Positions 4,196 to 25,600 of a DNA stretch of 64,000 nt are shown here, piece after piece. The DNA is taken from the NCBI RefSeq assembly GCF_000177675.1, contig NZ_ADGX01000022.1:1-64000 (forward strand), written 5' to 3'. Every line of letters begins with the position of its first letter. The first letter of the stretch is position 1. Under the pieces are notes generated by a model, which had not been told where the DNA came from, searched no databases, and saw nothing but the letters and a program-made list of their open reading frames with translations. The position numbers and the translations under genes are program-made. The stretch is from Parafrankia sp. EUN1f (lineage in GTDB: Bacteria > Actinomycetota > Actinomycetes > Frankiales > Frankiaceae).

Positions 4196-4235
4196 GGTGG
4201 GGCGGGTGGGGCTCGAACCCACGACCGACGGATTA
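4196..4235. repeat. attL: displaced 40-bp copy of tRNA 3' half
   Basis: This copy is identical to 27010-27049 over 40 bp and then diverges on both sides. Outside the repeat, the chromosomal side continues as T at 4195, so the minus strand reads ACCA after the acceptor stem. The ancestral tRNA gene therefore encoded its CCA end. Confidence 0.93.
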
Positions 4236-4426: not shown

Positions 4427-5569
4427 GTGGCCAGGCCCTCACTGAACCTCGGGACCTACGGCAACCTGTACACGGCGAAGTACGGCGACGGCTACCGCGC
4501 ACGCGCCCGGTACCGCGACTTCGACGGCCGCACGCGGCTCGTCGAACGCCACGCCAAGACCAAGGGCGCCGCCGAGCAAGCCCTACGCACGGCCCTACGG
4601 GACCGCGCCCGCGTCGACATCGGCACCGGCGCCATCACCGCCGAAGCGAAGGTCGCCGTTCTCGCCGAGGCGTGGTTCGAGTCCGTCCAGCGGCAGGACC
4701 GCTCCCCCAACACCACCGCCGCCTACCGGACGCGGCTCGACAAGTCCGTGATCCCTGGCCTCGGCGAACTGCGCATCCGAGAGCTGACGGTCGGCGTCGT
4801 CGACCGCTTCCTGTCCATCATCGCCGAGAAGCACGGACCGGCCGCCGCCAAGCAGACCCGCGCCGTCCTCTCCGGCATGTGCGGTCTCGCGGCCCGTCAC
4901 GACGCCCTTGACCGCAACGTCGTACGCGACGCCGGACCGATCGCCGAGGCCACCCCCAAGGAACAGCCGCGGGCCCTCACCCTCGACCAGCTCCGAGAGC
5001 TACGCGTCGCACTCCGGAACGACCCGAAGGCCGTCGGGCGCGACATCCCCGAGTTCGTCGACCTCCTCATGAGCACCGGCGTCCGCATCGGCGAAGCCGC
5101 CGGTCTGACATGGGGCGCCGTGAACCTCGATGAAGGCTGGATCGAGATCCGCTCGACCGTCGTACGGATCAAGGGCCAAGGACTGTTCAACAAGCCGAAG
5201 CCCAAGACCAAGGCCGGCCACCGCCGCCTGCAACTCCCGTCCTGGATGATCCGGACGCTGAAGCAGCGCTTCGACAACCAGCCGGACGACGTGACGGTCT
5301 TCCCCGCTCAGCTCGGCGGACTACGCGACCCATCGAACACGCAGGCCGACCTACGCGACGCCTTCAAGGCCGTCGGTATGGAGTGGGCAACCTCCCACAT
5401 CGTCGGCCGCAAGTCCGTCGCCTCAGCGATGGACAGCGCCGGACTGACTGCCCGCGCCGCCGCCGACCAACTCGGCCACCGCCAAGTCAGCCTGACCCAA
5501 GACCGCTACTTCGGCCGCAAGGTCGCCGAGACCGGAGCGGCAGCAATTCTTGAAGAGCTGGATACATGA
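4427..5569 (+). CDS. int: Tyrosine site-specific integrase of the element
   Basis: The 380-residue protein has an N-terminal arm-binding region (1-75), a SAM-like core-binding domain (about 75-165) and a C-terminal catalytic domain. Visible catalytic residues are R220 in STGVRIGE, a basic turn around KTKAGHRRLQLP, H324 and R328 in SHIVGRKS, H351 in LGH and the nucleophile Y361 in DRYFGR. It would recombine the 40-bp att cores in the tRNA gene. The HxxR box is one residue longer here (HIVGR) than the usual HxxR spacing. The gene starts with GTG about 190 bp inside attL, downstream of the repeated TTCCGTGGGG sites, and reads into the element. Family assignment is secure. Confidence 0.95.
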   Translation: MARPSLNLGTYGNLYTAKYGDGYRARARYRDFDGRTRLVERHAKTKGAAEQALRTALRDRARVDIGTGAITAEAKVAVLAEAWFESVQRQDRSPNTTAAYRTRLDKSVIPGLGELRIRELTVGVVDRFLSIIAEKHGPAAAKQTRAVLSGMCGLAARHDALDRNVVRDAGPIAEATPKEQPRALTLDQLRELRVALRNDPKAVGRDIPEFVDLLMSTGVRIGEAAGLTWGAVNLDEGWIEIRSTVVRIKGQGLFNKPKPKTKAGHRRLQLPSWMIRTLKQRFDNQPDDVTVFPAQLGGLRDPSNTQADLRDAFKAVGMEWATSHIVGRKSVASAMDSAGLTARAAADQLGHRQVSLTQDRYFGRKVAETGAAAILEELDT

Positions 5570-5686
5570 TGTCCGCCATAGCCGCCATCACACCCACCCA
5601 AAGCCCGAATAATCAAGACTATGTACCCGATAACACTCCCGAATTCGGAATGACGACTCGACCCATGGATCAGTTAAACACCGCGA

Positions 5687-6856
5687 TCACAATCCGGTGT
5701 GGGCGCGGAGGGCGGACCCAATGGCGGCAGCGACGTCAACCGCGACCGCATTTCCAAGGACGCGCATGGCAGCAGTCCGCGTACCAGGAACCTCGTAATC
5801 ATCCGGAAATGACTGTACTCGGGCACTCTCCCGAATAGTTAGGTAACGAAGCGATCCATCACGGAAACGAATCATTGCCTCTCCACCACAGACACCATGA
5901 ACACCAGCCTTCAGGGTCTTAGCTGGCCAATCGAAGAGACCCCCCGTATGCCCCTTGTATGTTCTCGCCCCAGGAATGCCTTTATGGTTGAGAACCTTAG
6001 GATGCTCCTTGTCATCGATTGGATCAGGAAGACCCAGGAGCACTTCACGAGTAGTTTTCCACGCTGGCAGAGAGGAAAATTCTAGCTTCTCCTGACGAAG
6101 AGCCGCTATTCTACTCGCGAGTCTTACAGGACTCTCGCCTTCCGGCGCTAATCTGTGTCGCTCCCAGTACTCGCCAGTAATCCATTGATCCCGAAGAAGA
6201 GAGTCCCGGCTATGCGTGGGAGAAATCTCCGACCATGAATCCGCACCTCTGATATCCCATCGCATACCGACAAGAAAAACTCTCCGCCGCTCCTGCCCGA
6301 CTCCCAGGTCTGCGGCGTTCACCAGCTGTCTGTATACATGATAGCGAAGGCCATCCGAATGCGACCGCCGTACTCTGGCATGGTGCTCCATCCAAGACTC
6401 GCCATCTCGCGGAGTAACCTCCGGGATCGCAAGCTGGTCAGAAATGTAATTGTAGTATGGGAGAAAGCTGGGCCGCAGGAGCCCAGGTACGTTTTCGAAA
6501 ACAAACAATTTCGGGCGTAGGCGACGGACTGTCTCTATCGCAGACGGAAACATATTACGGACATCATTGTGACCAGCATGAGCACCGCTAATAGAAAACG
6601 GCTGACAAGGTGGACCACCCGCAACTAGGTCGATGTCGTCCAGCTCCAGGTTCTCGACATCCTCAAGCCAATCGAGGACGTCGGCCTCCACTACGCTTTC
6701 AGCTTTCCACAGCCACGGGTTCCGCGCCGCATTCGCTAGTAGTACATGGACTGGCCTAGGCTCCCGCTCAATGAGCTGCTCATGCTCGAATCCAGCGTCC
6801 CGCATACCCAGTGCCATGCCCCCGCCACCCGCGAAAAGTTCTACTGATCGCGGCAT
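5687..6856 (-). CDS. DNA (cytosine-5) methyltransferase of the MORC-like R-M operon
   Basis: This 389-residue protein transfers methyl groups from SAM to C5 of cytosine in a defined DNA site. Motif I is LFAGGGGM (residues 7-14), the catalytic Cys is C84 in GGPPCQPFS, and motif VI is FENV near residue 120. Motif VIII is QERRR, and motif X is GNAVAV near the C-terminus. The variable region between VIII and IX should hold the target recognition domain. It is the last gene of a five-gene minus-strand operon, and its start overlaps the vsr gene by 16 bp. It presumably protects host DNA from the nucleases encoded upstream. The target sequence cannot be read from the protein. Confidence 0.95.
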   Translation of the reverse strand: MPRSVELFAGGGGMALGMRDAGFEHEQLIEREPRPVHVLLANAARNPWLWKAESVVEADVLDWLEDVENLELDDIDLVAGGPPCQPFSISGAHAGHNDVRNMFPSAIETVRRLRPKLFVFENVPGLLRPSFLPYYNYISDQLAIPEVTPRDGESWMEHHARVRRSHSDGLRYHVYRQLVNAADLGVGQERRRVFLVGMRWDIRGADSWSEISPTHSRDSLLRDQWITGEYWERHRLAPEGESPVRLASRIAALRQEKLEFSSLPAWKTTREVLLGLPDPIDDKEHPKVLNHKGIPGARTYKGHTGGLFDWPAKTLKAGVHGVCGGEAMIRFRDGSLRYLTIRESARVQSFPDDYEVPGTRTAAMRVLGNAVAVDVAAAIGSALRAHTGL

Positions 6857-7365
6857 TTTCCCTCACCTGACCCATCAACCAATATCCCATTTGATTCCTC
6901 CGGCGACGTGGTCGACTGTCGCCGACGTGACGCAGCTTTGGAACGTACAAGCTGCTCGATTTCGTCAACTACGCTGGCAAGATCTGTCTTCAGCCGCGAC
7001 TCGAAGACTCTATAAACGGTCCAATCCGCGTCTGCCAGATCCTGCGCAACACGCTCGTCACGAAGCATATTTCCAATAATCTTTGCCCGCCAAAATTCCG
7101 CATTATTCATTCGCTCAAACTGTGCTTCAAAAGAAGACATGCCGCGCACACGCCAGGAATTGCCATGCCAAAAATCGCCGTCAACAAACACGGCTACGCG
7201 GGGACCAGGAAAAACAATATCAGGGCGGCCCGTAACGCGGTATCTAACACGGAACCGGAGGCCGCGATGCCAGAGCGCACTACGAAGCACCATTTCGGGC
7301 CGCGTGTCCCGGGACTTGACAGACGACATAATCTTGCTGGTTATTTGAGGATCACGCATAGTCAC
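6841..7365 (-). CDS. vsr: Vsr-type DNA endonuclease
   Basis: The 174-residue protein has the Vsr signature: SSVKSRDTRPEMVLRSAL at residues 14-31 and GRPDIVFPGPRVAVFVDG at 46-63, continuing DFWHG. Asp49 sits where the metal-binding aspartate of E. coli Vsr lies, and the DFWHG histidine follows. Classical Vsr nicks T:G mismatches formed by deamination of 5-methylcytosine. In GHKL/MORC-containing R-M loci, Vsr-like nucleases may instead act as the restriction nuclease. It overlaps the methyltransferase gene downstream and the 200-aa gene upstream (4-bp overlap), so all are co-translated. The last 30 residues are a non-conserved tail. Confidence 0.93.
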   Translation of the reverse strand: MTMRDPQITSKIMSSVKSRDTRPEMVLRSALWHRGLRFRVRYRVTGRPDIVFPGPRVAVFVDGDFWHGNSWRVRGMSSFEAQFERMNNAEFWRAKIIGNMLRDERVAQDLADADWTVYRVFESRLKTDLASVVDEIEQLVRSKAASRRRQSTTSPEESNGILVDGSGEGKCRDQ

Positions 7366-7964
7366 TCTCCACTCATTCGCGGGAGCTCTCGGATGACTGT
7401 ATGCCGTACCTCAATTCCAGCCTGCCCGCCTAGGAGGACGTGGCGTGCGATCTCTCCTTCGGTCAGCCTCTGGCCTTGGCGAACGGAAACAACGATCACG
7501 GGTGTCGGTCCGCCATCGATCCTGGCGTTCAGCCCAGCCCATATCAAAGCCCGAAAGTTACTTGGGTTACCCCAGATCAGAAGCTTCCGAGTCCGCCCGT
7601 CGGTGATCAGACATCGACTTGGTTTTTCTCGCAGCGATTTCGTGTTGATTGACCACTCGGGACCAAATTCCTGATGTACAAGATAGTCGGGTCCAGGAAG
7701 CCTCCGCGTAGCGAACTGAGCATAGGGGCCGATACCATGCCGTGCGCGGTCGTAGTTCTTCATCGGCACATCTTTGATCCATAGCCTTGCCCGTTCGCGT
7801 GGAACGAACTGTGCGAGAACCTCTCCGATCGTTGGATCATCAAGCCACCTGTTATAGGTAGCCGAGCGATCCACCTGCGTTAGGCCGTCCCAATCCAGCT
7901 CGTCAGCTCTACGATAGATCTCAGTGATAAGCTGGCGGCGCACGGCGTCCGGAAGATCACTCAT
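7362..7964 (-). CDS. Uncharacterised 200-aa component of the MORC-like R-M operon
   Basis: I do not recognise this family. The protein is soluble, with an N-terminal helical part containing conserved-looking tryptophans and charged residues (RRADELDWDGL, YNRWLDDP). The C-terminal half is of alpha/beta character (LIWGNPSNFRALIWAG, TPVIVVSV). It has no membrane segment, zinc cluster or Walker motif. Its stop overlaps the vsr start by 4 bp, and only 5 bp separate it from the REase-helicase gene upstream. It is therefore almost certainly part of the R-M system, perhaps a specificity, adaptor or nuclease subunit. That role is inferred from position only. Confidence 0.8.
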   Translation of the reverse strand: MSDLPDAVRRQLITEIYRRADELDWDGLTQVDRSATYNRWLDDPTIGEVLAQFVPRERARLWIKDVPMKNYDRARHGIGPYAQFATRRLPGPDYLVHQEFGPEWSINTKSLREKPSRCLITDGRTRKLLIWGNPSNFRALIWAGLNARIDGGPTPVIVVSVRQGQRLTEGEIARHVLLGGQAGIEVRHTVIRELPRMSGE

Positions 7965-7969
7965 GTGTT

Positions 7970-9643
7970 CTAGTCCGAAAAAACGTTGGGGTCGGGGAAC
8001 TGGAGTTTTGCCTCATCCAGCGCAGTCTCCAGGCTCGCCGCATCCTTGATCCATTCCTGCATCAGATTCTCGACAGCACGATCACTGAATTCGAACCGAG
8101 TGCCCGTATTCGATAGTCTTAGGGTTTCTACTTCGTCAGCAGAAACCCGCTCCCGTAGATTGAGTACCGCAGCAATGCGCCGAATATCACTGACGAAATC
8201 CAATGCTTCGACGTGACTTTTCCCTTGACGTAGCCGAAGCCCTCGGCCTAGCTGCTGGACGAAGATACGACGGCTATGCGTCACGCGAGCGAAACAAATA
8301 ATATTCACGTCGGGAACATCCACGCCTTCATTTAGGATATCGACCGCCGTGATGATCGGCGTGTCACCAGCGCGGAAGCGCATCAGACGAAGCTGTCGTT
8401 CCCTCCGGTGCAGCTCTGCATGGACTGCCTCAGCACCCTTCCACTGGGGAACTTGATCTAGGAGTATCGCCATCCGTTCGGCATGCTCAATAGTTCGACA
8501 AAACACGACTATGCGCGGATCGGGTGTTCGCTCGTAAGCTTCAATAAGTCTGTCGCGAATCGCTTCATCACGTTCGGCAACAAAGAGGCGTGCGTTCAGA
8601 TCCTTAATCGCGTAGTTATTCCGGCTAGCGGCACGCACAAAATCCCAATCGATATTGTCCGCAAACAATCGATAGCGAACCTCGGCCAGAAAACCGAGAC
8701 GCATCCCATCTTCGATACCGAGAGTGTATACCGGCTCACCAAAGCGGTGTCTAATATCATAGCGATCGCCCCGCCAGGGAGTTGCTGTAACACCCAGCTG
8801 GGGCACATCTGACAACAGGTCGAGCAGTTCTGCGAAATACCCATTCTCGGCGACATGGTGAGCTTCATCGACCACAACGAGATCAGGCCGATACCCACTT
8901 CGTACGTATGACAGCGCGCTAAAGACCGTCGCGCAGGTAATGCCCCGAAGGTCATCTGGTCGGTGATCGCCAGTCAGAAGCTGGGTTCGGGTACCTTTGC
9001 TGATATGAAACCAAAGAGCCCGCTCAAGCTGCTCGACGAGCTCTTTGGTGTGGGCAACAACAAGTATCCGGCCCGCCGCATGTCGGCTTAGGTGGCGGGC
9101 GATGACTTCGCCACCGATCACAGTCTTTCCAAGGCCGGTCGCAAGTACCAGCAACGCTCGCTGATGTTCGTCTAGCGCGTCTGTGACCCGCTGAAATGCC
9201 TCCGACTGGTATGGACGGAGCGGACGCTCAGGCAACCGGTTTAGAAAAGCTCGCTCCTCCCCGTAGAGCTGAACGAGTTCTTTACCGGACCAAAGTTCGA
9301 CACGTATTCCAACACGCAGAAGTTCGTCTCGCCGACGAAGCACCGACGGGCCGAAACGAGAGTTCGTGACAACCGCAGCGCGATCGGCGCTGTAGTAATC
9401 CTTCGCTTTAACAACCTCGTCAACCGAGGCGGCGCCAACCGAGGCCGTAGATTTCCATTTCGTCTGGAACACCCATCGCTCTCCGTTACGACGGGCAAGA
9501 ATATCGCCGCCTTGATCATAAGAGCCATCGATGTTCGTAACATCCGTAAATCCGAGGTGGAGTAGTACTCGCTCTACCTGACGGGTGAAGGCGATCGGGC
9601 CGACCTCTTTTAGGAAAAGCGGGTCTACGAAGGAAGATCTCAC
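7970..9643 (-). CDS. Superfamily 2 helicase with N-terminal Mrr-like nuclease domain
   Basis: The 557-residue protein starts with a restriction-endonuclease-fold domain (residues about 15-120). Its core reads DQGGD (Asp47) followed by QTK (60-62), the PD-(D/E)xK arrangement of Mrr-like nucleases. A DEAD/DEAH-type helicase follows, with motif I ATGLGKT (about 167), motif II DEAH, motif III TATP and motif VI QQLGRGLRL. It should translocate on and cut DNA. The start overlaps the GHKL ATPase stop by 4 bp (ATGA). With the ATPase, Vsr and methyltransferase it matches the gene set described for MutL/MORC-associated R-M systems. Confidence 0.93.
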   Translation of the reverse strand: MRSSFVDPLFLKEVGPIAFTRQVERVLLHLGFTDVTNIDGSYDQGGDILARRNGERWVFQTKWKSTASVGAASVDEVVKAKDYYSADRAAVVTNSRFGPSVLRRRDELLRVGIRVELWSGKELVQLYGEERAFLNRLPERPLRPYQSEAFQRVTDALDEHQRALLVLATGLGKTVIGGEVIARHLSRHAAGRILVVAHTKELVEQLERALWFHISKGTRTQLLTGDHRPDDLRGITCATVFSALSYVRSGYRPDLVVVDEAHHVAENGYFAELLDLLSDVPQLGVTATPWRGDRYDIRHRFGEPVYTLGIEDGMRLGFLAEVRYRLFADNIDWDFVRAASRNNYAIKDLNARLFVAERDEAIRDRLIEAYERTPDPRIVVFCRTIEHAERMAILLDQVPQWKGAEAVHAELHRRERQLRLMRFRAGDTPIITAVDILNEGVDVPDVNIICFARVTHSRRIFVQQLGRGLRLRQGKSHVEALDFVSDIRRIAAVLNLRERVSADEVETLRLSNTGTRFEFSDRAVENLMQEWIKDAASLETALDEAKLQFPDPNVFSD

Positions 9644-12042
9644 TGCAGATCCTCCGACCTGAGTTCTTGATCAAGCATGTCTAGCGTGAGCCGAGTCAAC
9701 GAGAGGTCGAGTCGGCCTTTTGCATCGGTATTGACCACAAACTCAGCCAACGATTCAAAGCGTCTTGCGAGTCGCTCGACTTGCCGCGCTTTGGCATCAT
9801 GGCTCGGCCAAGTTGACCAGGTCGTAGTGAAGACAACTCCGTCTAGCACTAGGTCCGGCCGGCTTCTGATGATAGCTGCAACTCCGCCTGGCCCTAGATG
9901 TGCGATAAATCGACCATCGGTTGTGGCCTCGGACCATACCAAGCTTGATTCGGTAGCCTCAGCATTCCGCTCGGCATATTCTTTCTCCGAGATCGGCAAG
10001 CAATTCCATAGAGCAATCGCATGCTCGCGAACGGCGACTACCGATGTTAGTGCTTCGCGGGTCCTCTGCAGTAGACCTTCGATACGTTGCCGCAGTGCCG
10101 AGTCGGTAAAGCGCTGATCGGGTAGGCGGCTTATGATATCCGCAGCGACATAGGCGAGCGGTTCGGTCGTTCTAGCTTGGGTGCGCATTGTTTCCGCCAG
10201 CTGCATAATGGCGTAATCTCGCGGGTCTCGCCCGCATTCCTTGAAGACTGGGTGGCGGCCATCAACAAAGATCTCTATTTTGTTACCTCTTGGGCTGCGG
10301 GCCAAGGTCGGGGTCTCACGGCCGTTTCCGTCCTTGAGAGGCTCCGAAGTCTCGTAGACAACGACCTCCCGACGGCCAAGGTTCGGCAACGCCACTTCAT
10401 GGCACAGGTCAAGGAGGCGTCTGGCTGATGCGCGGTATCGATCAAATCTTTCCTCATCGGTTTCCTGGCGCGTAATAGGACCAGGACCGCTCGGAGAGGT
10501 AGAAGAAGATGCCCCAGTCAGCGATAGTCCTGTAATAGCCAGGATGTCATCTTGGGGGTCCGGTGAACTAACGTTGGGACGGCTAGTTCCCGCCGCCGTA
10601 CTCTTTCTCGACGGCCGCTGGCCTACTCTTACTTCATCGTGGTCGACTGCAGCTTCAAACCATCGGGCATCAGTCCGATACTCCGGCAGTCCTTTATGGA
10701 AATCCCGGCCCCATTCCCGGGCGGTCTCGTGCAGCGCTCGCGCGCCGTCGCCCGGAATTAGATTACGCTGTCCCGGTTTGATATCACGAAATGCTCCGAA
10801 GAACCAGCCAAGGGGAGAGTGGTTCTCCGGGTAGTTTATTTCCTTGGCTTTTTTAGGCTGAAGCGGCCCATCGCCTCGGACGATGTCAACGGCCGTGCGC
10901 CAATCCGAAGATCCCCGTTCAAAATCATTTTTTTGATATGTTACTGGAACGTGGTCTAGGTGTATTTCGCCAACAAAGCGTCCACCGACGGTAGCTCCAA
11001 GTTCGATCGGGTATTCGGTCCACTCTCGTCCCGTGTCGGGATGTTCCCACTTAAAGAGAGATTTGTCTTTCAGGCGAATTTTCCGGCCGTTTCGCAATAG
11101 GTCGAAGCCGAAATCGCTCGTATCGAAGTAGCGCTGCAAGCCTATCCAGCCAAAAACTCGCCGCTCCCGGAGCTGCAAATTCTCACTCTGACACTCAGCA
11201 CAGAAATCCGGATCCGAATGATGCCAGTAACCGCAGTCCATACAAGCCCAAGCAGGCTTAAGAGTCCTCTCAATTTTAGTTATTGCGGATACGTTTGCAC
11301 CTCGATAAGTTACATACCGGTTTGCCGACCAAACACACGGGAGTCGCGGTTTGACACGATTATCATTGACGTAGAGCGCGAAACCTCGACCTACCAGCGC
11401 CGGCCCGGGAAGCTCCGGTACACTATCGGACGATCTCAGCATATACGAGTATACGTCTCCTAGTTTTTCTCGTATCTGAGAACCTGTTGCCTGTCGGCGT
11501 AGCGAGGCACGCGTTTCCGGCTTTAGTCTCCGTACCGTTACTTCGGTTCCGTGAATGGCGATGTCTGCTTTGGGTTGTCTGCTCAGCGGGACGCTAAAGC
11601 TGCCGGCCTTCTCCATCCGCCGAAAATCGATTTCGGCCACGAGCCAATCTGCGTCACCAGCCCTCGTTGTACGCACCTCGGTGAGCGTTCCAAGTCGGGC
11701 GGTGGCTATGTTAAAACCCATACCGAACAGCCCCAAGCTGCCATGCCGTGAGTTGTTCGTGTACCCAGCCCGCAGGGACCTTTCCAGGTCCTCTTTACCC
11801 ATACCGCGTCCGGTGTCGGCCACGCATACGATTTCATCGCCCTTTGGCGTGGTGGGCTTAGGGAGAGTGACGCGTACGGTCGGAGGTTCCTGCGGGTCTC
11901 GTTCTTCATCCGCGATAAAATCGTCGAAGGCATTATCGATCAATTCCGCAAGGCACTGCCAAGGCTGATACGGAATATCTCCCAGGACCTCCAGCAGTCT
12001 GGGAGATGGAGTGAGATCAAGCTGCTCCATGAAGACCCCCAT
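9640..12042 (-). CDS. MORC-like GHKL ATPase of R-M system
   Basis: This 800-residue protein carries a Bergerat-fold ATPase: N-box AELIDNAFDD (32-41), G1 box VADTGRGM (74-81) and G2 box GLFGMGF (104-110). An S5-like transducer region follows, with an inserted zinc ribbon (CMDCGYWHHSDPDFCAEC, near residue 275). The C-terminal half is longer and uncharacterised. Prokaryotic MORC/MutL-like ATPases of this kind act as ATP-driven clamps in restriction systems. It is the first gene of the operon, with a divergent 477-bp spacer to the next transcript upstream. Its A/T-richer sequence than the transfer genes suggests independent import. ATG 12042 is used; an internal Met at codon 5 is an alternative start. 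Confidence 0.92.
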   Translation of the reverse strand: MGVFMEQLDLTPSPRLLEVLGDIPYQPWQCLAELIDNAFDDFIADEERDPQEPPTVRVTLPKPTTPKGDEIVCVADTGRGMGKEDLERSLRAGYTNNSRHGSLGLFGMGFNIATARLGTLTEVRTTRAGDADWLVAEIDFRRMEKAGSFSVPLSRQPKADIAIHGTEVTVRRLKPETRASLRRQATGSQIREKLGDVYSYMLRSSDSVPELPGPALVGRGFALYVNDNRVKPRLPCVWSANRYVTYRGANVSAITKIERTLKPAWACMDCGYWHHSDPDFCAECQSENLQLRERRVFGWIGLQRYFDTSDFGFDLLRNGRKIRLKDKSLFKWEHPDTGREWTEYPIELGATVGGRFVGEIHLDHVPVTYQKNDFERGSSDWRTAVDIVRGDGPLQPKKAKEINYPENHSPLGWFFGAFRDIKPGQRNLIPGDGARALHETAREWGRDFHKGLPEYRTDARWFEAAVDHDEVRVGQRPSRKSTAAGTSRPNVSSPDPQDDILAITGLSLTGASSSTSPSGPGPITRQETDEERFDRYRASARRLLDLCHEVALPNLGRREVVVYETSEPLKDGNGRETPTLARSPRGNKIEIFVDGRHPVFKECGRDPRDYAIMQLAETMRTQARTTEPLAYVAADIISRLPDQRFTDSALRQRIEGLLQRTREALTSVVAVREHAIALWNCLPISEKEYAERNAEATESSLVWSEATTDGRFIAHLGPGGVAAIIRSRPDLVLDGVVFTTTWSTWPSHDAKARQVERLARRFESLAEFVVNTDAKGRLDLSLTRLTLDMLDQELRSEDLQ

Positions 12043-12519
12043 GCGGGCTCTGGATCAAGGCCCCTCCCCTACCGTGACGGACTCGCACCCGGTCGCAACG
12101 GGTGATACTCACCGGATCAAGCGCGCAGCAGATGTAAGCAAGACTACGCAGTCAATCACAAGCGGTCACGATCGTGAAGAAGTGGTCGATCGGTGGCAAA
12201 CCGGCCGCCTGGCGGCTGTGGCCGCGGCAAGACCGTGTCCGACGCATGGGAGTGTGAGGTCAGCCGCACACAGACTCCGACACCCCTATAGGCCTGTGGC
12301 CTGGACCTACGGCCTGCCGTGGATGTTTGTAGATGGGACGTAGGGATCTCTTTGATTCGTCACGCGAGGCCGCCGGCCCTCGGCCCGGTGTCCAGGTGAG
12401 AATCCCGGGTATCCAACTCGGTCGGCCCTAGCCTGACCACTGGCCTTTCAGGCACACGAGAGGACTACTCGTGGAACACTTGACGACGGTGATGGAGTCG
12501 AGCATGCGGCGGGAGGCTG
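12043..12519. other. Divergent intergenic region
   Basis: This 477-bp spacer separates the R-M operon (minus) from the membrane protein operon (plus) and must hold both promoters. I see no gene and no clear operator. A good ribosome-binding site (GGGAGG) precedes the GTG at 12520. Confidence 0.5.
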
Positions 12520-14328
12520 GTGTCGGCGAAGCGCAAGCTGGTGCTTCGATCCCTCGTGGTCGTGGTCGCTGCAGTCGGTGCGGTTGGGCTGTGGGCAGCC
12601 GGAGAGTCGGTGTCAGCGGCGAAGGCCGGTGTCTTATGGCAGCTCGGCTTGGGCCTGTTCACCGCGCTCCTGACCGCGCAGACCATCGTCTTCGCGGTCA
12701 GCGCGGACCCTGAGACAGTCTGGCCGTCCTTCCTCGACCTGGTGGAAGAGACCGGCCTCGTCCTCTGGCTCACGACAGGCACCTTCTCCGTGCTGCTGCC
12801 TGCGGCTGCGGACATCACAGGACGGGGTGGCCTCCTGGCCGACCTCAGTCTCGGTCTCGTCGTCGCACAGCTCATCTTGGGGATCGACTCGCTACAGGCG
12901 CTTCTGCGGGTGCTTGCCGGTGAGGGCCGACAACTCTTCCTTGCTCGTCTTGCGTCCGAGGATCTCAGGCGCGCCGCCCGCTCCGGTCGGCCAGTTCGGG
13001 TCGACCGGGCCCATGCGCTTGCCGGGTACTTGGGCGCGGTCGAGACCGCGATCGATAGCGCGGACGTCGCGGCCCTCGGACAGCGCATGACGGAGGTCGC
13101 CCGGCAGGCCCGCGACGACGAGCACGCCGAGGTCGCCCGATGGCGGTTGGCGTTGCTCACGTACCTGATCGAGCGGGTCGGGCGGGCGGTGCTTTACCAC
13201 GACCTGACCGGCGATGCGGCACGCGTCGCGCTCCCCCATCTCATCGACGGGGCGTTGCACTCCAGCTACCGGCTCACCGAGCTGACCGGCACCGGAGCGG
13301 CGTCGGAAGATCACGTCAGTGAGGTCGAAGCCGCGGTCACCCTCGGCCAGGTCTGCCGTGTGATCGGCTGGCTTCAGCAAGCCGCGCACGAGCGGCTTCA
13401 GGAACGGCCGGACGACGTCAGCGCCCGACAGGTGATCTCATCGGTCGCCAAGGGCCGGCTACGGATCGTTCAGTTCGTCGATCCCGACCCGCCCGGCTTC
13501 TACCGGCAGGCAGAGGACCCGTGGCCGTACGGGTTGAGCGATCCTGCCGCGGTGTTGGTGTGGCTGTGGTCTATGTGCGAGTTCGGCGGGTCCTGGGTCG
13601 GCAGTGGCCTGTACGTACTCGCTGAGGTGATCACCGGTGAGAAGTTCTACGGCAACTACTGGAACGACGAATGCATCTTCACCGAGATCGAGCGGCGGAT
13701 CGGTGCCGACGGTTCCCGGCGGCACCGCACCGAGGACGGGCGCGCCGCCGAGGTTGTCGCGGCGTGTGGAGGGCTGCAAACCGTCGCGCTGGAGCTGTGC
13801 GCGACCGTCATCGCCGGTCTACGGAACACCCGCTTCACCCCACCGGCCGGCTTCGAGCAGGACCCGACCTTCTCGACCGACCGGCGGTATCTGCGCTCAC
13901 AGATCACGATGTTCGCCACGTACGACTGCCTGCCCGACCCGGACGGCGCGTTGAACTGGCTCTCGACCGCGCTGTCTCAGTTCCCGACCCAACGCTCGTT
14001 ATGGCGCACTGTCGACACCGCGGTCTCCGCCGTCGGGCATCCGGGCACCCTCGACCTACACGGGCCGGACGCCCGGCCGGCCGCGACGACGCTAGCGGCC
14101 CTGTGCTGTCTCCAGATGCACCGGCCGGACGACGCCCGCGAGTTCGTCGATCGCCTGCCTGAGCCGCTCGTCGCCGGTGCCTTGCAGCTTGCCCGCTTCT
14201 CGCTGACCATCGACGGACCTGCGGAGCCGGTCATGCTCACCTGGTCGCCCCGCATGGCCGATCGCCTCGGCGACCGACCTGCACGGCGACAGGAACTGTT
14301 GGACATCATCGAAGCGATCCTCCGGTGA
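12520..14328 (+). CDS. Uncharacterised membrane protein, cargo operon
   Basis: The family is unknown to me. The 602-residue protein has four hydrophobic helices near the N-terminus (about 8-28, 36-60, 75-95 and 103-125) and then a long soluble, helix-rich domain facing the cytoplasm. No nuclease, protease or NTPase motif is visible. The GTG start follows GGGAGG at good spacing. Its stop overlaps the next start (GTGA), and the third gene again overlaps, so the three proteins are probably made in equal amounts and act together. The location in the variable part of an integrative element hints at a defence, exclusion or envelope-modifying role, which is inference. Confidence 0.85.
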   Translation: MSAKRKLVLRSLVVVVAAVGAVGLWAAGESVSAAKAGVLWQLGLGLFTALLTAQTIVFAVSADPETVWPSFLDLVEETGLVLWLTTGTFSVLLPAAADITGRGGLLADLSLGLVVAQLILGIDSLQALLRVLAGEGRQLFLARLASEDLRRAARSGRPVRVDRAHALAGYLGAVETAIDSADVAALGQRMTEVARQARDDEHAEVARWRLALLTYLIERVGRAVLYHDLTGDAARVALPHLIDGALHSSYRLTELTGTGAASEDHVSEVEAAVTLGQVCRVIGWLQQAAHERLQERPDDVSARQVISSVAKGRLRIVQFVDPDPPGFYRQAEDPWPYGLSDPAAVLVWLWSMCEFGGSWVGSGLYVLAEVITGEKFYGNYWNDECIFTEIERRIGADGSRRHRTEDGRAAEVVAACGGLQTVALELCATVIAGLRNTRFTPPAGFEQDPTFSTDRRYLRSQITMFATYDCLPDPDGALNWLSTALSQFPTQRSLWRTVDTAVSAVGHPGTLDLHGPDARPAATTLAALCCLQMHRPDDAREFVDRLPEPLVAGALQLARFSLTIDGPAEPVMLTWSPRMADRLGDRPARRQELLDIIEAILR

Positions 14329-14891
14329 GCGCCGGTCCTACCCCCGCGCCGGACATGTGGCGGCGAAGCTTGCCCGCAGTCGAGAGTGCCGCGACCGTGT
14401 GGACGGTGCAGGTCGCAACGCCATGGCTCACCGATCCCGACCACCAACGGGTCCGGGACGACCTCGACCACGCCCTGTTCCGCCGGGCGCTCAAGGAGCA
14501 GACCGGCTTCTGCTTCCGGCGCGTCCTGCTCTACGACCCGCCGAGCGACCTCGGCGGCGCGCCGGACAGGTACGCCGCCGCCCAGGCCGACCACGCGGCC
14601 TGGATCGGTCGGGTCCGTAGGCACCTTGCCGCCATCGGCGCCGTGGGAAGCGCCGGTGGATCGCTTCCCGACGGCTGCGAGTACTCGGTACGGCTGCTCA
14701 TCCTCGGCCGCGCGGGCACACGTACCGCCCCGGCGGTCGAAGATGGGCTCTGGACCGAACAGACACCACCGGCCGACGTCCAGGCCGCGTGGTCCGACCC
14801 GCGGCTGATCCCGCTCGACCCACACGAGGAATCCATCATCGGACCGCATCGGGACCGCAACCCACTGTGGCAAGGAGCGTTCCTTGGCTGA
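14325..14891 (+). CDS. Uncharacterised 188-aa soluble protein, cargo operon
   Basis: Not recognised. The protein is soluble and rich in charged residues, with segments such as TVQVATPWLTDPDHQRVRDD and FRRVLLYDPPSD. No membrane helices or metal clusters are visible. It starts with GTG inside the stop of the membrane protein gene and ends inside the start of the glycosyltransferase gene, so it is translationally coupled to both. It is most likely a partner or regulator of one of them. Confidence 0.8.
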   Translation: MSAGPTPAPDMWRRSLPAVESAATVWTVQVATPWLTDPDHQRVRDDLDHALFRRALKEQTGFCFRRVLLYDPPSDLGGAPDRYAAAQADHAAWIGRVRRHLAAIGAVGSAGGSLPDGCEYSVRLLILGRAGTRTAPAVEDGLWTEQTPPADVQAAWSDPRLIPLDPHEESIIGPHRDRNPLWQGAFLG

Positions 14892-15786: not shown

Positions 15787-16401
15787 TCAATCCGACACCC
15801 AGAATTCTATCTCACTGATCGCCATATCGCTCGCCCTTTTCACGTCTTCACTGTCGTCTCTCCCCGCCCGGACCGCGAGGATTTCTATCGTGATCGCCGA
15901 TGTTTCCCCTTGAGGGCCCTCCAATTTCTGGAATTCGGCAAAGCTGCTCTCATTTTGCTCAGATAGTGCGGATTCTTCGGCATCTTCATCGTTTGTCGAT
16001 ACATTCACCAAACGTAGCCTTGCATTCGTGGTATAGCTGGTCCAGCTTTTCCCGTATCCATTTACTACGCAAATCAGCTTTATGTTCTGTCGCGCAGTCC
16101 AGGTAAAGGTTATTCTCTCTTTTACACCTAGACCATCAGCCCCTTCCACCCAAGCCGTTCCCGTATCGCCGTCAACGAGATTATTTGGCCCATAGGAGAT
16201 CGATTCTTGCGGCGGAAGTTGAGATGTCGCCTCAACTCTGGTTGGCTGCTCTGCGCGATCCAGGCCCTTTGGATCTGCACAACTAGCTTCTTTGAAGCTA
16301 TTCGATATTTCGGGCCCACACATAGCGAGAATGGCAAATACGACAATTGCCGTAACAATGCCTCCGATGGCAGAGCTGAGCCCACTCCAGAAATGATCCA
16401 T
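15787..16401 (-). CDS. Membrane-anchored discoidin-like (NADase-type glycan-binding) protein
   Basis: The 204-residue protein has one N-terminal transmembrane helix (about 10-28, GGIVTAIVVFAILAMCG). An extracytoplasmic jelly-roll domain of the F5/8 type C class, the so-called NADase-type glycan-binding domain, follows. Its hallmarks are TSQLPPQESISYGPNNLVDG, TAWVEGADGLGVKE and VVNGYGKSW. The domain usually binds glycans at the surface. The sequence is A/T-richer than the flanking transfer genes. It converges on the glycosyltransferase gene without spacing, so any pairing with that enzyme is only positional. Confidence 0.8.
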   Translation of the reverse strand: MDHFWSGLSSAIGGIVTAIVVFAILAMCGPEISNSFKEASCADPKGLDRAEQPTRVEATSQLPPQESISYGPNNLVDGDTGTAWVEGADGLGVKERITFTWTARQNIKLICVVNGYGKSWTSYTTNARLRLVNVSTNDEDAEESALSEQNESSFAEFQKLEGPQGETSAITIEILAVRAGRDDSEDVKRASDMAISEIEFWVSD

Positions 16402-18759: not shown

Positions 18760-20985
18760 ATGTCCGAGAATTTTCCCTCGACACCGTCCGATCCGGCTGG
18801 GACGCCGTCCGGCACCGGCGGATGGGTGCCTGACGTCAGCCCTGAGGCAGGCTCCCTCGTCCCGTACGGGTCCGGCGACCGGCTGCCCGCTGCACCGGCG
18901 CAGATCGTCTACGACCTCGTGAAGGCCGCACCGCGGGACGGCCGGTCCGACACCGAGGACGTGGTCGTGACCGGCGTCGCGGTCAATCCGCCCGAACCGC
19001 CGCCGAGTCCATGGGCGCTTGCCCGGTCCGGCGCGCGGCGGCCGGTCATGCCGACCTGGCTGCGATCGTGGGCAGCGCTGCGATCGGCGGCCCGGTGGTT
19101 CGCTGGCTACTGCTTCCACACGGCTCTGTTCCATGCCGTCCGGCTACCGTTCTACGCCGCCGTTCTGTTCTGGCGTGCGCCCCGTGGCCTCGGGCGCGCA
19201 GCGACCGGCGCCGCCGGTTGGCTGACCGACGCCGAGACCCGACCGGCCCGTGCAACGGCGATCCGTCGGGAGGAGACGAGCGAGTACCTCAGGCTGGCGA
19301 AGCTGCGGGACGCGCGTGTCCGCGTACGCACCATCGTGGCCATCGCCGCGGGACTGCCGACTACCGCGGCATTCACGATCGCGTGGATGGCCACTCCCCC
19401 GGCGGTCCATCTGGTCATCCTCGCGATTCTGGTCGGCGTCCTGGGCACGCTCGGCGCGCCGGCGGACCGGCCACTCGTCGGGCCGGCCGTCACTCCGACC
19501 AAGGTCGGCCGGCTGACCGCTGACATCGTGGTCCGCGCGCTGGAGTCGCTCGGCATCGCCGAGATCAACAAGGCACGTCGGGAGGGTGGTGGGATCACGT
19601 TTCCCGCGCCGATCACCCGTGATGGGCCCGGATGGCGCGCGGACGTTGACCTTCCCTACGGCGTGACCGTGTCCGACATCCTCGACCGCCGGGAACGTCT
19701 CGCGTCCGGCCTGCGCCGTCCGATCGGGTGCGTGTGGCCCGAAGCCGTCCACGACACCCACGCCGGTCGACTCGTGCTGTGGGTGGGCGACGAGGACATG
19801 TCCAAGGCCAACGCCGCCGAGTGGCCGTTGGCACGGCGCGGCACCGCCGACGTGTTCGCGCCCCTGCCGTTCGGGTCCGATGCCCGCGGCCGACCGGTCA
19901 CGGTCCTGCTACCGGAGAACAACGTGCTCGTCGGGTCGCTGCCGGGCGCGGGCAAGACCTCGGCGGTGCGGGTGCTCTTGCTCGCCTGCGGGCTGGACCC
20001 CACGTGTGAGGTGTGGGTCTACAACCTCAAGGGCACCGGCGACTTGGACGCCGCCGAGAAGTTCGCCCACCGGTGCGTCACGGGCATCGACGATGCCAGC
20101 GTCGAAGCCGCACTCGTCGCGCTTCGCGACCTGCGCGCCGAGGTCGTCCGCCGCGCCACCGCGTTGAAGAACCTCCCGAAGGACCTGTGCCCGGACGGCA
20201 AGGTCACCCGCGCTCTGGCCAACCGCCGATCTCTCGGCCTGCACCTGCTCGTCGCGTTCTTCGACGAGTGCCAGAACCTGTTCACCCATCCCGTCTACGG
20301 GGAGGAAGCCGGCACGCTGGCCACCGACGTCATCAAGCTCGGACGGGCCCTCGGCGTCGTCCTCGTTCTGGCCACCCAGCGCCCGGACGCGAACAGCCTC
20401 CCGACCGGCGTGTCGTCCAGCGTCTCGGTGCGGTTCTGCCTGCGGGTCATGGGCCAGGTCGAAAACGACATGATCCTCGGGACGTCGATGTACAAGAACG
20501 GCATCCGGGCGACCACGCTCCGGCCCACCGACAAGGGAATCGGCTACCTCGTCGGCGCGACGGATGACCCGCTCATCGTCCGGGCCGCCTACATCGACAC
20601 ACCAACAGCCGAGAAGATAGCCGACCGGGCACGCGCAGTCCGTATCCAGGCTGGCGCACTCGCCGGAATCGCGGCAGGCGAAGCCCCACCGGAACCAGCC
20701 GGAAGAACGTCGACCATTCTGGACGACGTGTTGGCCGTGTTTCCTGCCAGCGAAACCAAGGTCTGGTCGGAGACCATCGTCGCTCGACTTGCCGAGCTAC
20801 GCCCCGACGCGTACACCGGGTGGGGCGCCGAGCAACTTACCGTCGCTCTCAAGCCCTATGGGATTTCCCCCGGCCAGGTGTGGGGCACGACCCCCGGTGG
20901 TAAAGGCGCCAACAGGCGCGGGATCGAGCGACAGCAGGTCGTCTCAGCGATCACGGATCGTAGCAGAAGTGGGGGCGGTGACTGA
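18760..20985 (+). CDS. traB: TraB/TraSA-type FtsK-like DNA translocase
   Basis: This 741-residue protein is the predicted transfer motor, which moves double-stranded DNA between mycelial cells as a hexamer. The N-terminal third has a variable acidic/proline region and hydrophobic segments (about 110-145 and 190-225, for example VHLVILAILVGVLGTLG). The FtsK/SpoIIIE motor follows, with Walker A SLPGAGKTSAV near residue 395, Walker B LLVAFFDECQN near 500 and ATQRPDANSLP. The C-terminal domain (about 645-741) could be the winged-helix DNA-reading part. GGAGGA precedes the ATG. Palindromic repeats just after the stop codon are candidate recognition sites. Confidence 0.92.
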   Translation: MSENFPSTPSDPAGTPSGTGGWVPDVSPEAGSLVPYGSGDRLPAAPAQIVYDLVKAAPRDGRSDTEDVVVTGVAVNPPEPPPSPWALARSGARRPVMPTWLRSWAALRSAARWFAGYCFHTALFHAVRLPFYAAVLFWRAPRGLGRAATGAAGWLTDAETRPARATAIRREETSEYLRLAKLRDARVRVRTIVAIAAGLPTTAAFTIAWMATPPAVHLVILAILVGVLGTLGAPADRPLVGPAVTPTKVGRLTADIVVRALESLGIAEINKARREGGGITFPAPITRDGPGWRADVDLPYGVTVSDILDRRERLASGLRRPIGCVWPEAVHDTHAGRLVLWVGDEDMSKANAAEWPLARRGTADVFAPLPFGSDARGRPVTVLLPENNVLVGSLPGAGKTSAVRVLLLACGLDPTCEVWVYNLKGTGDLDAAEKFAHRCVTGIDDASVEAALVALRDLRAEVVRRATALKNLPKDLCPDGKVTRALANRRSLGLHLLVAFFDECQNLFTHPVYGEEAGTLATDVIKLGRALGVVLVLATQRPDANSLPTGVSSSVSVRFCLRVMGQVENDMILGTSMYKNGIRATTLRPTDKGIGYLVGATDDPLIVRAAYIDTPTAEKIADRARAVRIQAGALAGIAAGEAPPEPAGRTSTILDDVLAVFPASETKVWSETIVARLAELRPDAYTGWGAEQLTVALKPYGISPGQVWGTTPGGKGANRRGIERQQVVSAITDRSRSGGGD

Positions 20986-22643: not shown

Positions 22644-25600
22644 TCACGGCCACCAGCGCTGACAGTCCAGTATGCCAAGAGCAGCTTCTTCCACAGCCTC
22701 GTTCCCGCCATATTTGGCGACAACTGACGCAGCAGGAAGAATAGCTTGAACAAAAGTTGACCGCCCCATCTTGGCTCCCTCTTCGAGAACTAGCCTCCAC
22801 CAGAAGATCATAGATTTGGCGGTCGCCAACCGCATAAGCGTCTTCGAAAGACGGTCAGCAATTACACCTTGCGGCCTGGATCTGCAGATCAATTCCGCGA
22901 CACGCGAATGATGACCATCCAGCATTGATTCCGGGATGCCCGGCACCATGCGCCAGCCGTCGCGCGGACACAAAATATCGATCAGGTCAAGAAAAGGTCG
23001 AAATCGTCGAGAATCTACATAAGGTGCAACGGCCGCAAGGAAGAACGCCCATTGCAATGTGTCCGAAACCTTCCGCATACTATGGAGGGCTGCTCGCACA
23101 AGTACTTCTCGTGATTCTCCGTCTGCACACCGACATAGACACAGTAGTGCGCGAGCGTACACATACCCCTCAGTCTCACCTGCCAATGCTGCTGCGGGAT
23201 CGTCTGCCAATCCAAGGTCTGTCTCCCAGTCACCCCGCATCGCAATCGCGGCCAGCGTCCACGGCATTACGTAGCCGCCCAGTTCGCGTGCAGTCGCAAG
23301 GGCCTCCGGCCCCATGTCGGCAGGGACATACTGCACAAGTTCTGCGAATTCCCGCGCCTTCACCAAGTCATCGTTATTTATATCAAGAACCGAGCGGAAT
23401 GCCAAGACGGCGATGTCGCGACGAAGTCGGGGATCCGGAAGATTATGTTTAAGTAGCTGAACCGTTAGATCGAGACGACTGGAAGGCCACTGCTCGGTAT
23501 TAATTATATCCTCAAGGCGCGCGGCGATTCGACCATCGTCAACACCCGCGGTCACGAATGGCAGCAGCTCATCAAACTCGACCGCACTCCATCCCGCCAC
23601 GTGAAGGGGCTCGACAGCATCTAGAATGGAACTTACCGACAGATCATTATCAATTCGAAGGATCGCAACTTCAAGCGCGGCCCGCTGCTCCGGAGACTTT
23701 GCCGAGCTGCGCATATCCTTAAACTCTGTAGACGACACCACCTGGCGTTCCTCGCCCAATATCAAGGCATACTCAGATACAGTCTTTGCAACATCACCCG
23801 CGTCGTCGATCCTCTGACATACCAGAAATGCCCGCCGCAGAAGCGAGTGGTCGAGTTCGAGGGATATTCCGTCAAGTGTGTAGAACCAGTCATCGAGATT
23901 ATCGCTGCGAGCAAGTAGATCCAACGCTTCCAGCTGTGCATTAATTCTTGCAGTCTCGGAAAGAAATTCCGAGACTGCACCGAGGCACTCAGCCCGCATC
24001 GCATCACTATCGACCGAGTGTGTGCAGCGCAGCATCTCGTCCACCAAAAGAGGCGTAACCTTTTCGCCGCATTCGATTACCGATCGTATCGAAAATAGTC
24101 TGTGGTAAGGATCCTCGACACTGAGTGCGATGTCAACAAGTCTCGACCGTCGATCGGGAATCATTTCGTCATCGAATGCGAGAAATGCCTCGAATCGCTG
24201 CGGGTGCCCCTCTATCCCAGAGGCCAGCGCGAGGGCCCAGCGAGAGAATATCGAACGCTGATCCCCGTCGAGTCGTCGAGAAATTTCACATAGCGCCTGG
24301 ACTTTATGTACCCTATATACCTCGCCAGCGTCGCTACTCCAGGATCTCAACGACTCGATAATCCGATCTAGCCTCGACTGATCTAGATGTGGGATCAGTA
24401 CAGATAGGGCGCCACTGCTCTTCTCCGTAAGAGCCCGAGAAAACGCTTCGATCAACATCTCGGAAAACTCGACGGGGTCGATATGATGCTTTAGAAGTAT
24501 CAAATTTCTGGACCATCGTTCGATAGTCGACACCTTCGCGCCATCGACCACCATCCGCAGTAGCGTCAAAGGCATGGAGCGAGCAAGGCTTGCCAAGCGC
24601 ACGGAATCAGAGTAGATGAAGTCATCCAGGCGATCGAGAGTTTCGTGGATTAATGCGTCACGCGATGCTTCAGGAACAAGGTCGATAATCTCGCAGACCG
24701 CTGAGACTCTGTCTCGACCCTCAGGGATCGCACCTACATGCTCCAAGCAGTATTCGAGCGTCCAAATCCCAGATTCTACGAGACGATACATCAGCTTGGG
24801 AGGAACTCGGGATACTCGGAGCAGAATCGAGCCCTTCATCGCGACATAACGGATCTCCATCCCAAGAGTGGTGGCCAGCCGGCCTTCCGCTAAGTCGCGA
24901 TCAGTACGCTCCTTTGCCAGCCTCCAAGCCGTGTCAACGTCCGATAGATAAGAGTTAATCATCCCCAACTGTTCATGTACATCGAACCAAACATTAATCA
25001 GTACTCCGTCGCCGCTACCCTCTAGAGCAAGAACTTGATCAATAGTATTAGGAATGTCGCTTGCCGCCAAATGGGGTATTAGCCAGGCTAGTCCATAGCG
25101 GTCGGCGAGATCGATACTGACCCGTTCGCGCAGCCCAGGAAATCCGCTCTGGACTCCTCCCCACCGGCACAGAAGTGCTTCCGAGAGCACGCGGTTCAAC
25201 CACTCATAACGACCTTCGGGAATGCTGACCCGCATGTAGTCAAAGAGAAGATCATGAAGAGTTATTGTGCCTGTAAATCGGTCGACACGGACGAGAGAGC
25301 GCAGCCCGAGCAGGTTGACCATTTCCTCGACGTCAAGGGAGTCAAGGCCCCCTGTCGCTCCCCACAGCAAGGCGACGATATCAATCGGCACTGGCCCACG
25401 GCCGGCAAATACAACCAGGTCTCGAAAACGATCAGATTCAGATGGCGGCAGCGCTTGGACCGAAACATCGAGCGCAGCGAACAGATTTTGGTATAGGTAG
25501 CCGGGAAAGCGAGCTGTTAGTTTATGCAGAGTGGCACCACGAAGTCGTTCTACAATATACTGCCATCGGCTTCCGAGCCGAAACATGGAGCCGACCAATG

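Follow-up and report, generated by a model that had tools for sequence, protein, structure and literature searches.

The five-gene operon at positions 5687-12042 of the window (the whole 64,000-nucleotide stretch analysed here, i.e., positions 1 to 64,000 of contig NZ_ADGX01000022.1 of Parafrankia sp. EUN1f, a member of the Frankiaceae with a 9.35 Mb genome) is best explained as a mobile, ATP-dependent restriction-modification (R-M) system of the MORC class, a reading which, taken together with the full mechanism proposed below, we consider somewhat probable. The class itself is already known from computation, having been described in the operon text of Iyer et al. 2008 (PMC2292703). New here are a third core subunit, an evolution in two modules, a predicted DNA motif and a proposed answer to the question of why such an operon encodes two nucleases.

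Results

Operon organisation and enzyme motifs

All five genes lie on the minus strand and are transcribed from 12042 to 5687. They encode, in this order, an 800-aa MORC-like GHKL ATPase with an S5 domain, a four-cysteine zinc ribbon and a conserved C-terminal domain at residues 526-800 (9640-12042); a 557-aa Mrr-type PD-(D/E)XK nuclease fused to a RadD/XPB-like superfamily 2 (SF2) helicase (7970-9643); a 200-aa protein, here called C200 (7362-7964); a 174-aa Vsr-family endonuclease of a zinc-less subclass, matched by Pfam and NCBIfam Vsr (6841-7365); and a 389-aa C5-cytosine methyltransferase (MTase) of the Eco29kI type, with a predicted target of CCGCGG or a YCGCGR-like form (5687-6856). The junctions in transcription order are a 4-bp overlap, a 5-bp gap, a 4-bp overlap and a 16-bp overlap. 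The original prediction had named these five genes on one strand with the same order, lengths, overlaps and gap, and every open reading frame (ORF) and junction was recovered exactly. Its domain assignments (GHKL ATPase with zinc ribbon, Mrr/SF2 helicase, Vsr and C5-MTase) are likewise borne out by conserved cysteines and by Pfam matches to HATPase_c_3 (2e-11), Mrr_cat (8e-17), ResIII (3e-23), Helicase_C (2e-17), Vsr (9e-25) and DNA_methylase (3e-46).

It had also read the operon as a MORC R-M locus, and this holds. Among PDB chains, human MORC3 and MORC4 come nearest, with Hsp90 further off, and the S5 domain carries the G-x4-R-x2-R motif that, according to the S5 section of Iyer et al. 2008 (PMC2292703), unifies MORCs; the window sequence GFDLLRNGRKI matches the pattern GhXhhpXXRhl save for K at one hydrophobic position. 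The gene set also fits the account in that paper of MORC operons with cytosine methylases, Vsr and Rad25-like helicases that carry a fused nuclease at the N terminus.

For comparison, a scan with a MORC alignment found 262 relatives in 84,980 genomes, of which 80 loci were fetched; with three plasmid loci, Frankia loci and more diverged IMG/VR loci added, about 100 relatives were compared in total. Nearly all loci hold all five families, and because the same genes recur jointly in about 85 independent loci, their association is far beyond chance. A search of phage records for MORC relatives found none. PADLOC had no model for MORC or C200 at E<0.01, and the MTase, Vsr and helicase matched generic PADLOC models only.

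By alignment, each of the four enzymes keeps its active-site motifs over about 80-85 diverged loci. The N-box, DxGxG, GLFGMG and S5 residues G312, R317 and R320 are invariant in 85/85 MORC homologues, and the zinc-ribbon cysteines C267, C270, C281 and C284 are kept in 85, 85, 85 and 83 of the 85, respectively. The Mrr residues D43, D47 and Q60xK62 are invariant in 85/85, and the helicase DExH motif is present in every aligned homologue; helicase motif VI, as well as the PCQ and ENV motifs of the MTase, are invariant or nearly so (79-85 sequences per family). The closest PDB structure to the helicase is RadD (6jde), with XPB/RAD25 also kin. The MORC C-terminal domain is modelled with a predicted local distance difference test (pLDDT) score of 95 and matched nothing in the PDB with Z>=8.

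A conserved core and a partner module

In all loci the MORC, helicase and C200 genes keep the same order and strand, and the MTase and Vsr genes stand before, after or around them on either strand. Pairwise distances across 78 loci, which give descriptive correlations because related sequences are not independent, correlate at 0.86, 0.71 and 0.70 among MORC, helicase and C200, at 0.79 between Vsr and MTase, and at 0.12-0.33 across the two groups. The window helicase groups with loci of a different MTase class, and the window MTase groups with loci whose helicases are distant. Approximately unbiased (AU) tests reject a shared history for the window clade (p 1.7e-94 and 3e-57), and MTase class changes five times on the helicase tree. 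These comparisons separate an invariant core, made up of the MORC ATPase, the Mrr-nuclease/helicase and C200, from a partner module of MTase and Vsr with a different history, in which Vsr evolves along with the MTase.

The MTase was found in every locus with sufficient flank except one, and most of the apparently MTase-less loci come from short contigs; L008 has its MTase, together with an Eco29kI nuclease, upstream of an insertion sequence. We withdrew the argument from MTase swapping to a motif-agnostic core: every swapped MTase belongs to the Eco29kI type, and one site may be common to them. A strictly obligate link between the core and Eco29kI-type MTases is true for the 81 main loci and fails in a diverged IMG/VR branch with other C5-MTases. 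L170 has a core near the main set and a C5-MTase that is not of the Eco29kI type; its contig stops within the helicase, upstream of any C200.

In one large clade (L061-L092), a protein of ~450 aa with a sigma70 region-4 helix-turn-helix is encoded directly after C200 (L084:13619-14971 and 22 further strong loci) and is a lineage-specific fourth core gene.

C200, the third core subunit

The original prediction had left the 200-aa protein as unknown. This stands insofar as no Pfam family was found in a scan of 68 members, nor any NCBIfam, PADLOC or PHROGs match, and it is superseded insofar as C200 can now be described as part of the core, with a fold predicted to be nuclease-like but devoid of nuclease residues. 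C200 homologues are present in 83 loci; among 396 evenly drawn genomes C200 was found in the source genome only, a lower bound with eight candidates scored per genome.

An AlphaFold 2 model (pLDDT 93.9, from a 64-sequence alignment) shows a helical N-terminal domain followed, at residues 88-194, by an alpha-beta-beta-beta-alpha-beta-alpha-beta arrangement. Its structural neighbours are EndoMS/NucS, the CdiA toxin domain, XisH, PaqCI, SfsA, Can2, FokI and EcoT38I (Z 5.5-7.6, under the caution line of Z 8), families which we take to share the PD-(D/E)XK fold. The best of these, EndoMS/NucS and other PD-(D/E)XK proteins, align over 87-95 residues of this region (Z 7.4-7.6, rmsd 2.6-2.8), but show no sequence similarity to C200, and a Foldseek search with the model gave no match at E<0.001. 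C200 is likely, rather than proven, to carry a restriction-endonuclease-like fold, because the Z values fall under 8.

Within residues 88-194 no acidic residue is conserved in more than 62% of sequences, and W131 and R/H117 occupy the likely active-site positions. The reading of C200 as an active PD-(D/E)XK nuclease was rejected for lack of conserved acidic residues and of an (E/Q)xK motif. Residues R60, K64, K69, R73 and K114-P115 show little or no variation, and C200 is, on this modelling, most likely a DNA-binding pseudonuclease. In four diverged IMG/VR loci whose MTase is not of the Eco29kI type, C200 lacks K114-P115 and has N at position 69, while equally or more diverged loci with an Eco29kI-type MTase (pDrdI, L007, L174, L176, L179 and L180) retain K114-P115 and K69 (R in pDrdI). 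Every Eco29kI-type locus inspected has K114-P115 and K or R at position 69. Being a single event, the change in the four loci is suggestive, though no proof, of a C200 that reads the target site. The idea of C200 as a subunit co-varying with the target recognition domain (TRD) of the MTase found no support in partial correlations.

Two further observations concern the neighbourhood of C200. In L046:13684-15225 and L050:13677-15224, C200 is directly followed by a second, longer ORF of about 513 aa that itself contains a C200 domain, possibly a paralogue fusion. In alphaproteobacterial copies a PIN_8-domain gene lies directly 3' of C200 (L007:9529-10608 and L008:9529-10608).

The methyltransferase and its predicted motif

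By its motifs the window MTase is an intact Eco29kI-type enzyme. A family profile scores MORC- and Eco29kI-linked MTases at 459-620 bits, against 67-202 bits for 30 background actinobacterial C5-MTases; a profile of the MORC-linked MTases scores the Eco29kI-linked ones at 460-542 bits. In plasmid searches the closest MTases outside these loci adjoin Eco29kI nucleases. An Eco29kI-family nuclease is near the MTase in 36 of the 81 loci and missing from the other 45. A search for the Eco29kI GIY-YIG nuclease over the first 30 kb of the window, a span that includes the operon and its island, gave no match, and the window clade has none.

R.Eco29kI cuts CCGCGG (PMC1952068, PMC10855626). A second pointer to the motif comes from plasmid pDrdI of Deinococcus wulumuqiensis 479 (L164), which carries MTase, MORC, helicase and C200 in this order; over the whole plasmid there is a single C5-MTase and neither a Vsr nor an Eco29kI restriction endonuclease (REase). 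The 5-methylcytosine (5mC) MTase M.DrdVII, with the motif YCGCGR, has been assigned to pDrdI (PMC6430315), and measurements on the same strain, then named D. radiodurans, showed methylation of YCGCGR (PMC8112702). Since YCGCGR includes CCGCGG and the MTase family is of the Eco29kI type, the predicted target of the window enzyme is CCGCGG or a relaxed version of it, and the enzyme probably methylates CCGCGG-type sites. The pDrdI locus (L164 15235-19241) also holds genes resembling cyclic-oligonucleotide-based anti-phage signalling systems (CBASS), namely a nucleotidyltransferase, E2, JAB and SAVED, after the MORC system.

Vsr and the two nucleases

Aligned with E. coli Vsr (1cw0), the protein of very-short-patch repair, the window Vsr shares its fold and retains the catalytic and mismatch-wedge residues (E24, D49, H67, M13 and W66); it differs in lacking the zinc ligands, C66/H71/C73/C117 being replaced by D/N/W/S, and in the change of H64 to D. 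The catalytic residues (E25/D51/H69 in E. coli numbering) are kept in 78 Vsrs. Fifteen Vsrs, the window's included, lack zinc ligands C66/H71/C117, which have changed jointly to D/N/S; the other Vsrs, the majority, are zinc-binding. Standalone genes in L065:6314-6817 and L056:6528-6878 are homologous to the N-terminal extension of a long (about 260 aa) Vsr class and have no Pfam family (L065 scanned).

Vsr is present in 78 of the 81 loci, a count from which L056 was left out because its match covers the N-terminal extension domain only. A Vsr lies within 8 kb in 44 of 80 (55%) C5-MTase loci of the class, which weakens the case for Vsr as a MORC-specific part. The pDrdI locus, without Vsr, indicates that Vsr is dispensable. 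The original prediction had asked why two nucleases are present; the answer proposed here is that Vsr is a companion of the MTase, missing from the pDrdI copy. Because it follows the MTase rather than the core, is missing from pDrdI and is a common neighbour of C5-MTases, a repair role is the simplest reading, with Vsr probably guarding 5mC sites in the host's own DNA. It may also have a role in attack, given the stronger linkage to these loci, the MutL-like nature of MORC and the link to MutL, which Vsr endonucleases bind and which stimulates them (PMC6116569).

Genomic setting

The operon, judged from sequence comparison, is mobile. Its locus shares 83% DNA identity with one in Frankia sp. 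R82, and the identity spans exactly 5682-12202 and nothing beyond, which indicates that the operon and 160 bp upstream moved together; the upstream region (12043-12202, minus strand) is a probable promoter. The GC content of the operon is 55%, against ~70% outside the island. This island of ~22.8 kb is integrated at a tRNA gene. Its left end is a copy of a 40-bp perfect repeat (4196-4235; an attachment site and tRNA 3' end fragment), identical to 27010-27049, the 3' end of an intact tRNA-Met(CAT) found by ARAGORN (27010-27085, minus strand) and the right attachment repeat at the far end. A tyrosine integrase gene (4427-5569, plus strand; Pfam Phage_integrase) lies just within the left repeat. 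Of the features of an actinomycete integrative and conjugative element, integrase and repeat are thus present, and an FtsK/SpoIIIE-like translocase (18760-20985, plus strand; Pfam FtsK_SpoIIIE 0.0017, under the family cut-off) is a candidate conjugal transfer gene only.

The island also encodes a 1278-aa NB-ARC STAND protein with Effector-associated domain 1 (22644-26480, minus strand), a second candidate defence gene, and a protein with an NAD-glycohydrolase translocation F5/8 type C domain (15787-16401, minus strand; Pfam NADase_transloc 2e-27). The Frankia copies of the operon in L009, L010 and L011 adjoin the same response-regulator gene, and probably share an insertion hotspot. A second GHKL R-M locus in the source genome (L158, G000:C345:10000-28000, about 6442-14572) encodes a 434-aa GHKL protein, two C5-MTases, a Vsr and a large protein resembling an AIPR family member; it was rejected as a further copy of the present operon, being a different, paraMORC-type operon.

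Discussion

In the mechanism that we propose, the MTase would mark host sites of the CCGCGG type (YCGCGR in the pDrdI relative), and the C200 pseudonuclease would bind or recognise the site on unmodified DNA. A MORC dimer might then close on the DNA and hydrolyse ATP, by analogy with MutL and MORC clamps, after which the helicase would track along the DNA and the Mrr domain would cut. Vsr would act mainly as companion of the MTase, nicking T:G mismatches that arise from deaminated 5-methylcytosine at host sites, so that of the two nucleases Mrr may serve attack and Vsr the upkeep of the tag. The MTase persists even where an Eco29kI REase is missing (45 of the 81 loci), which implies that modification is required by some other part of the locus. 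Within this scheme, the part given to C200, as a new kind of target-recognition subunit in which a dead nuclease fold reads the (unmethylated) CCGCGG/YCGCGR-type site and licenses the MORC clamp and helicase-nuclease, is tentative, and we regard it as rather doubtful. If true, the operon would encode a restriction machine driven by ATP and falling outside Types I, II and III, working beside the Eco29kI nuclease or replacing it.

Several points weigh against the proposed system. A literature search found no restriction, cleavage or phage-defence experiment for the operon or a relative. The four loci whose C200 lacks K114-P115 form one clade and hence represent one evolutionary switch. C200 distances showed no co-variation with the MTase TRD in the partial correlation test, though none is to be expected if the site is constant. 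M.DrdVII is tied to the pDrdI MTase by elimination, as the sole C5-MTase on the plasmid. Finally, Vsr is linked more tightly to these loci than to its background, leaving room for a restriction role.

In one alternative, Vsr is a sequence-specific restriction nickase at unmethylated motif sites in foreign DNA, and MORC, helicase and Mrr load at the nick and degrade the DNA, an offensive use of the MutL-Vsr-helicase logic. An intact active site in a protein that tracks the MTase, the 78 of 81 loci against a 55% background, the binding and stimulation of Vsr by MutL (PMC6116569) together with the MutL-like nature of MORC, and a Vsr-like protein that damages unmethylated DNA in Caulobacter (PMC12907096) all speak for it. 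However, on pDrdI the MTase and the three core genes occur with no Vsr anywhere on the plasmid, L070 has Eco29kI instead, and 36 of the 81 loci already contain a site-specific REase of the Eco29kI family; the wedge residues M13 and W66 are kept, as T:G recognition predicts. We consider this explanation unlikely, and give equal weight to one in which the MTase itself is the target-recognition subunit of the core complex, as in Type I/III or bacteriophage exclusion (BREX)-like systems, with C200 a mere scaffold or DNA clamp. The MTase is obligate, the core lacks a recognisable target-recognition domain and has been swapped between two MTase classes, and a partial correlation, though a weak one, links the Mrr and helicase domains to the MTase TRD (0.21-0.23; 0/300 permutations), as would fit such a subunit. 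Yet the MTase is often on the opposite strand or kilobases off, unlike a stoichiometric subunit, and MTases of the Eco29kI type belong to a standalone Type II family and act alone with their own REase.

Less probable still, and in our view distinctly unlikely, is a core that serves as a motif-independent defence or DNA-processing complex and merely travels along with a Type II R-M module, one that in the window clade has no REase. It would account for the full Eco29kI-type R-M set next to the core in 36 loci and for a window clade that lost or never had the REase, but not readily for the intact MTase and Vsr that persist in the 45 loci without one, nor for a core that essentially never occurs without an MTase.

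Read as a MORC-class R-M system, the operon resembles the Rad25-like type of MORC/paraMORC R-M operons (PMC2292703) in its GHKL and S5 ATPase, Rad25/XPB-like nuclease-helicase, C5-methylase, Vsr and lateral mobility; the MORC/paraMORC operon text of that paper makes no mention of an inactive third subunit of the C200 type, of two modules, of a link to Eco29kI-type MTases or of a motif. With Eco29kI-type Type II R-M systems it shares the MTase family, and many loci also hold the GIY-YIG nuclease, but the window has the ATPase, helicase-nuclease and C200 in place of that nuclease. Some CCGCGG systems have been noted to carry Vsr ('V') and helicase ('H') elements (PMC10855626). The M.DrdVII locus of pDrdI (PMC6430315) has the same MTase-MORC-helicase-C200 order and a reported motif, and differs in its lack of Vsr and in a MORC that is only about 36% identical across the N-terminal half. 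In VcSduA/Shedu (PMC12137116) a GHKL ATPase has been shown by experiment to control a nuclease in phage defence, although that system is a single protein with another nuclease and no MTase. The papers searched contain no description of C200 or of the link between these MTases and a motif.

Conclusions

Bacterial MORC proteins are the proposed origin of the eukaryotic MORC chromatin silencers. The comparison defines a minimal system of MTase, MORC, helicase-nuclease and C200, together with a likely DNA motif and residue-level targets for mutation, and it offers a concrete hypothesis for each nuclease-fold protein of the operon. With D. wulumuqiensis 479 (pDrdI), a culturable strain whose methylome has been measured, a question dating from 2008 becomes directly testable.

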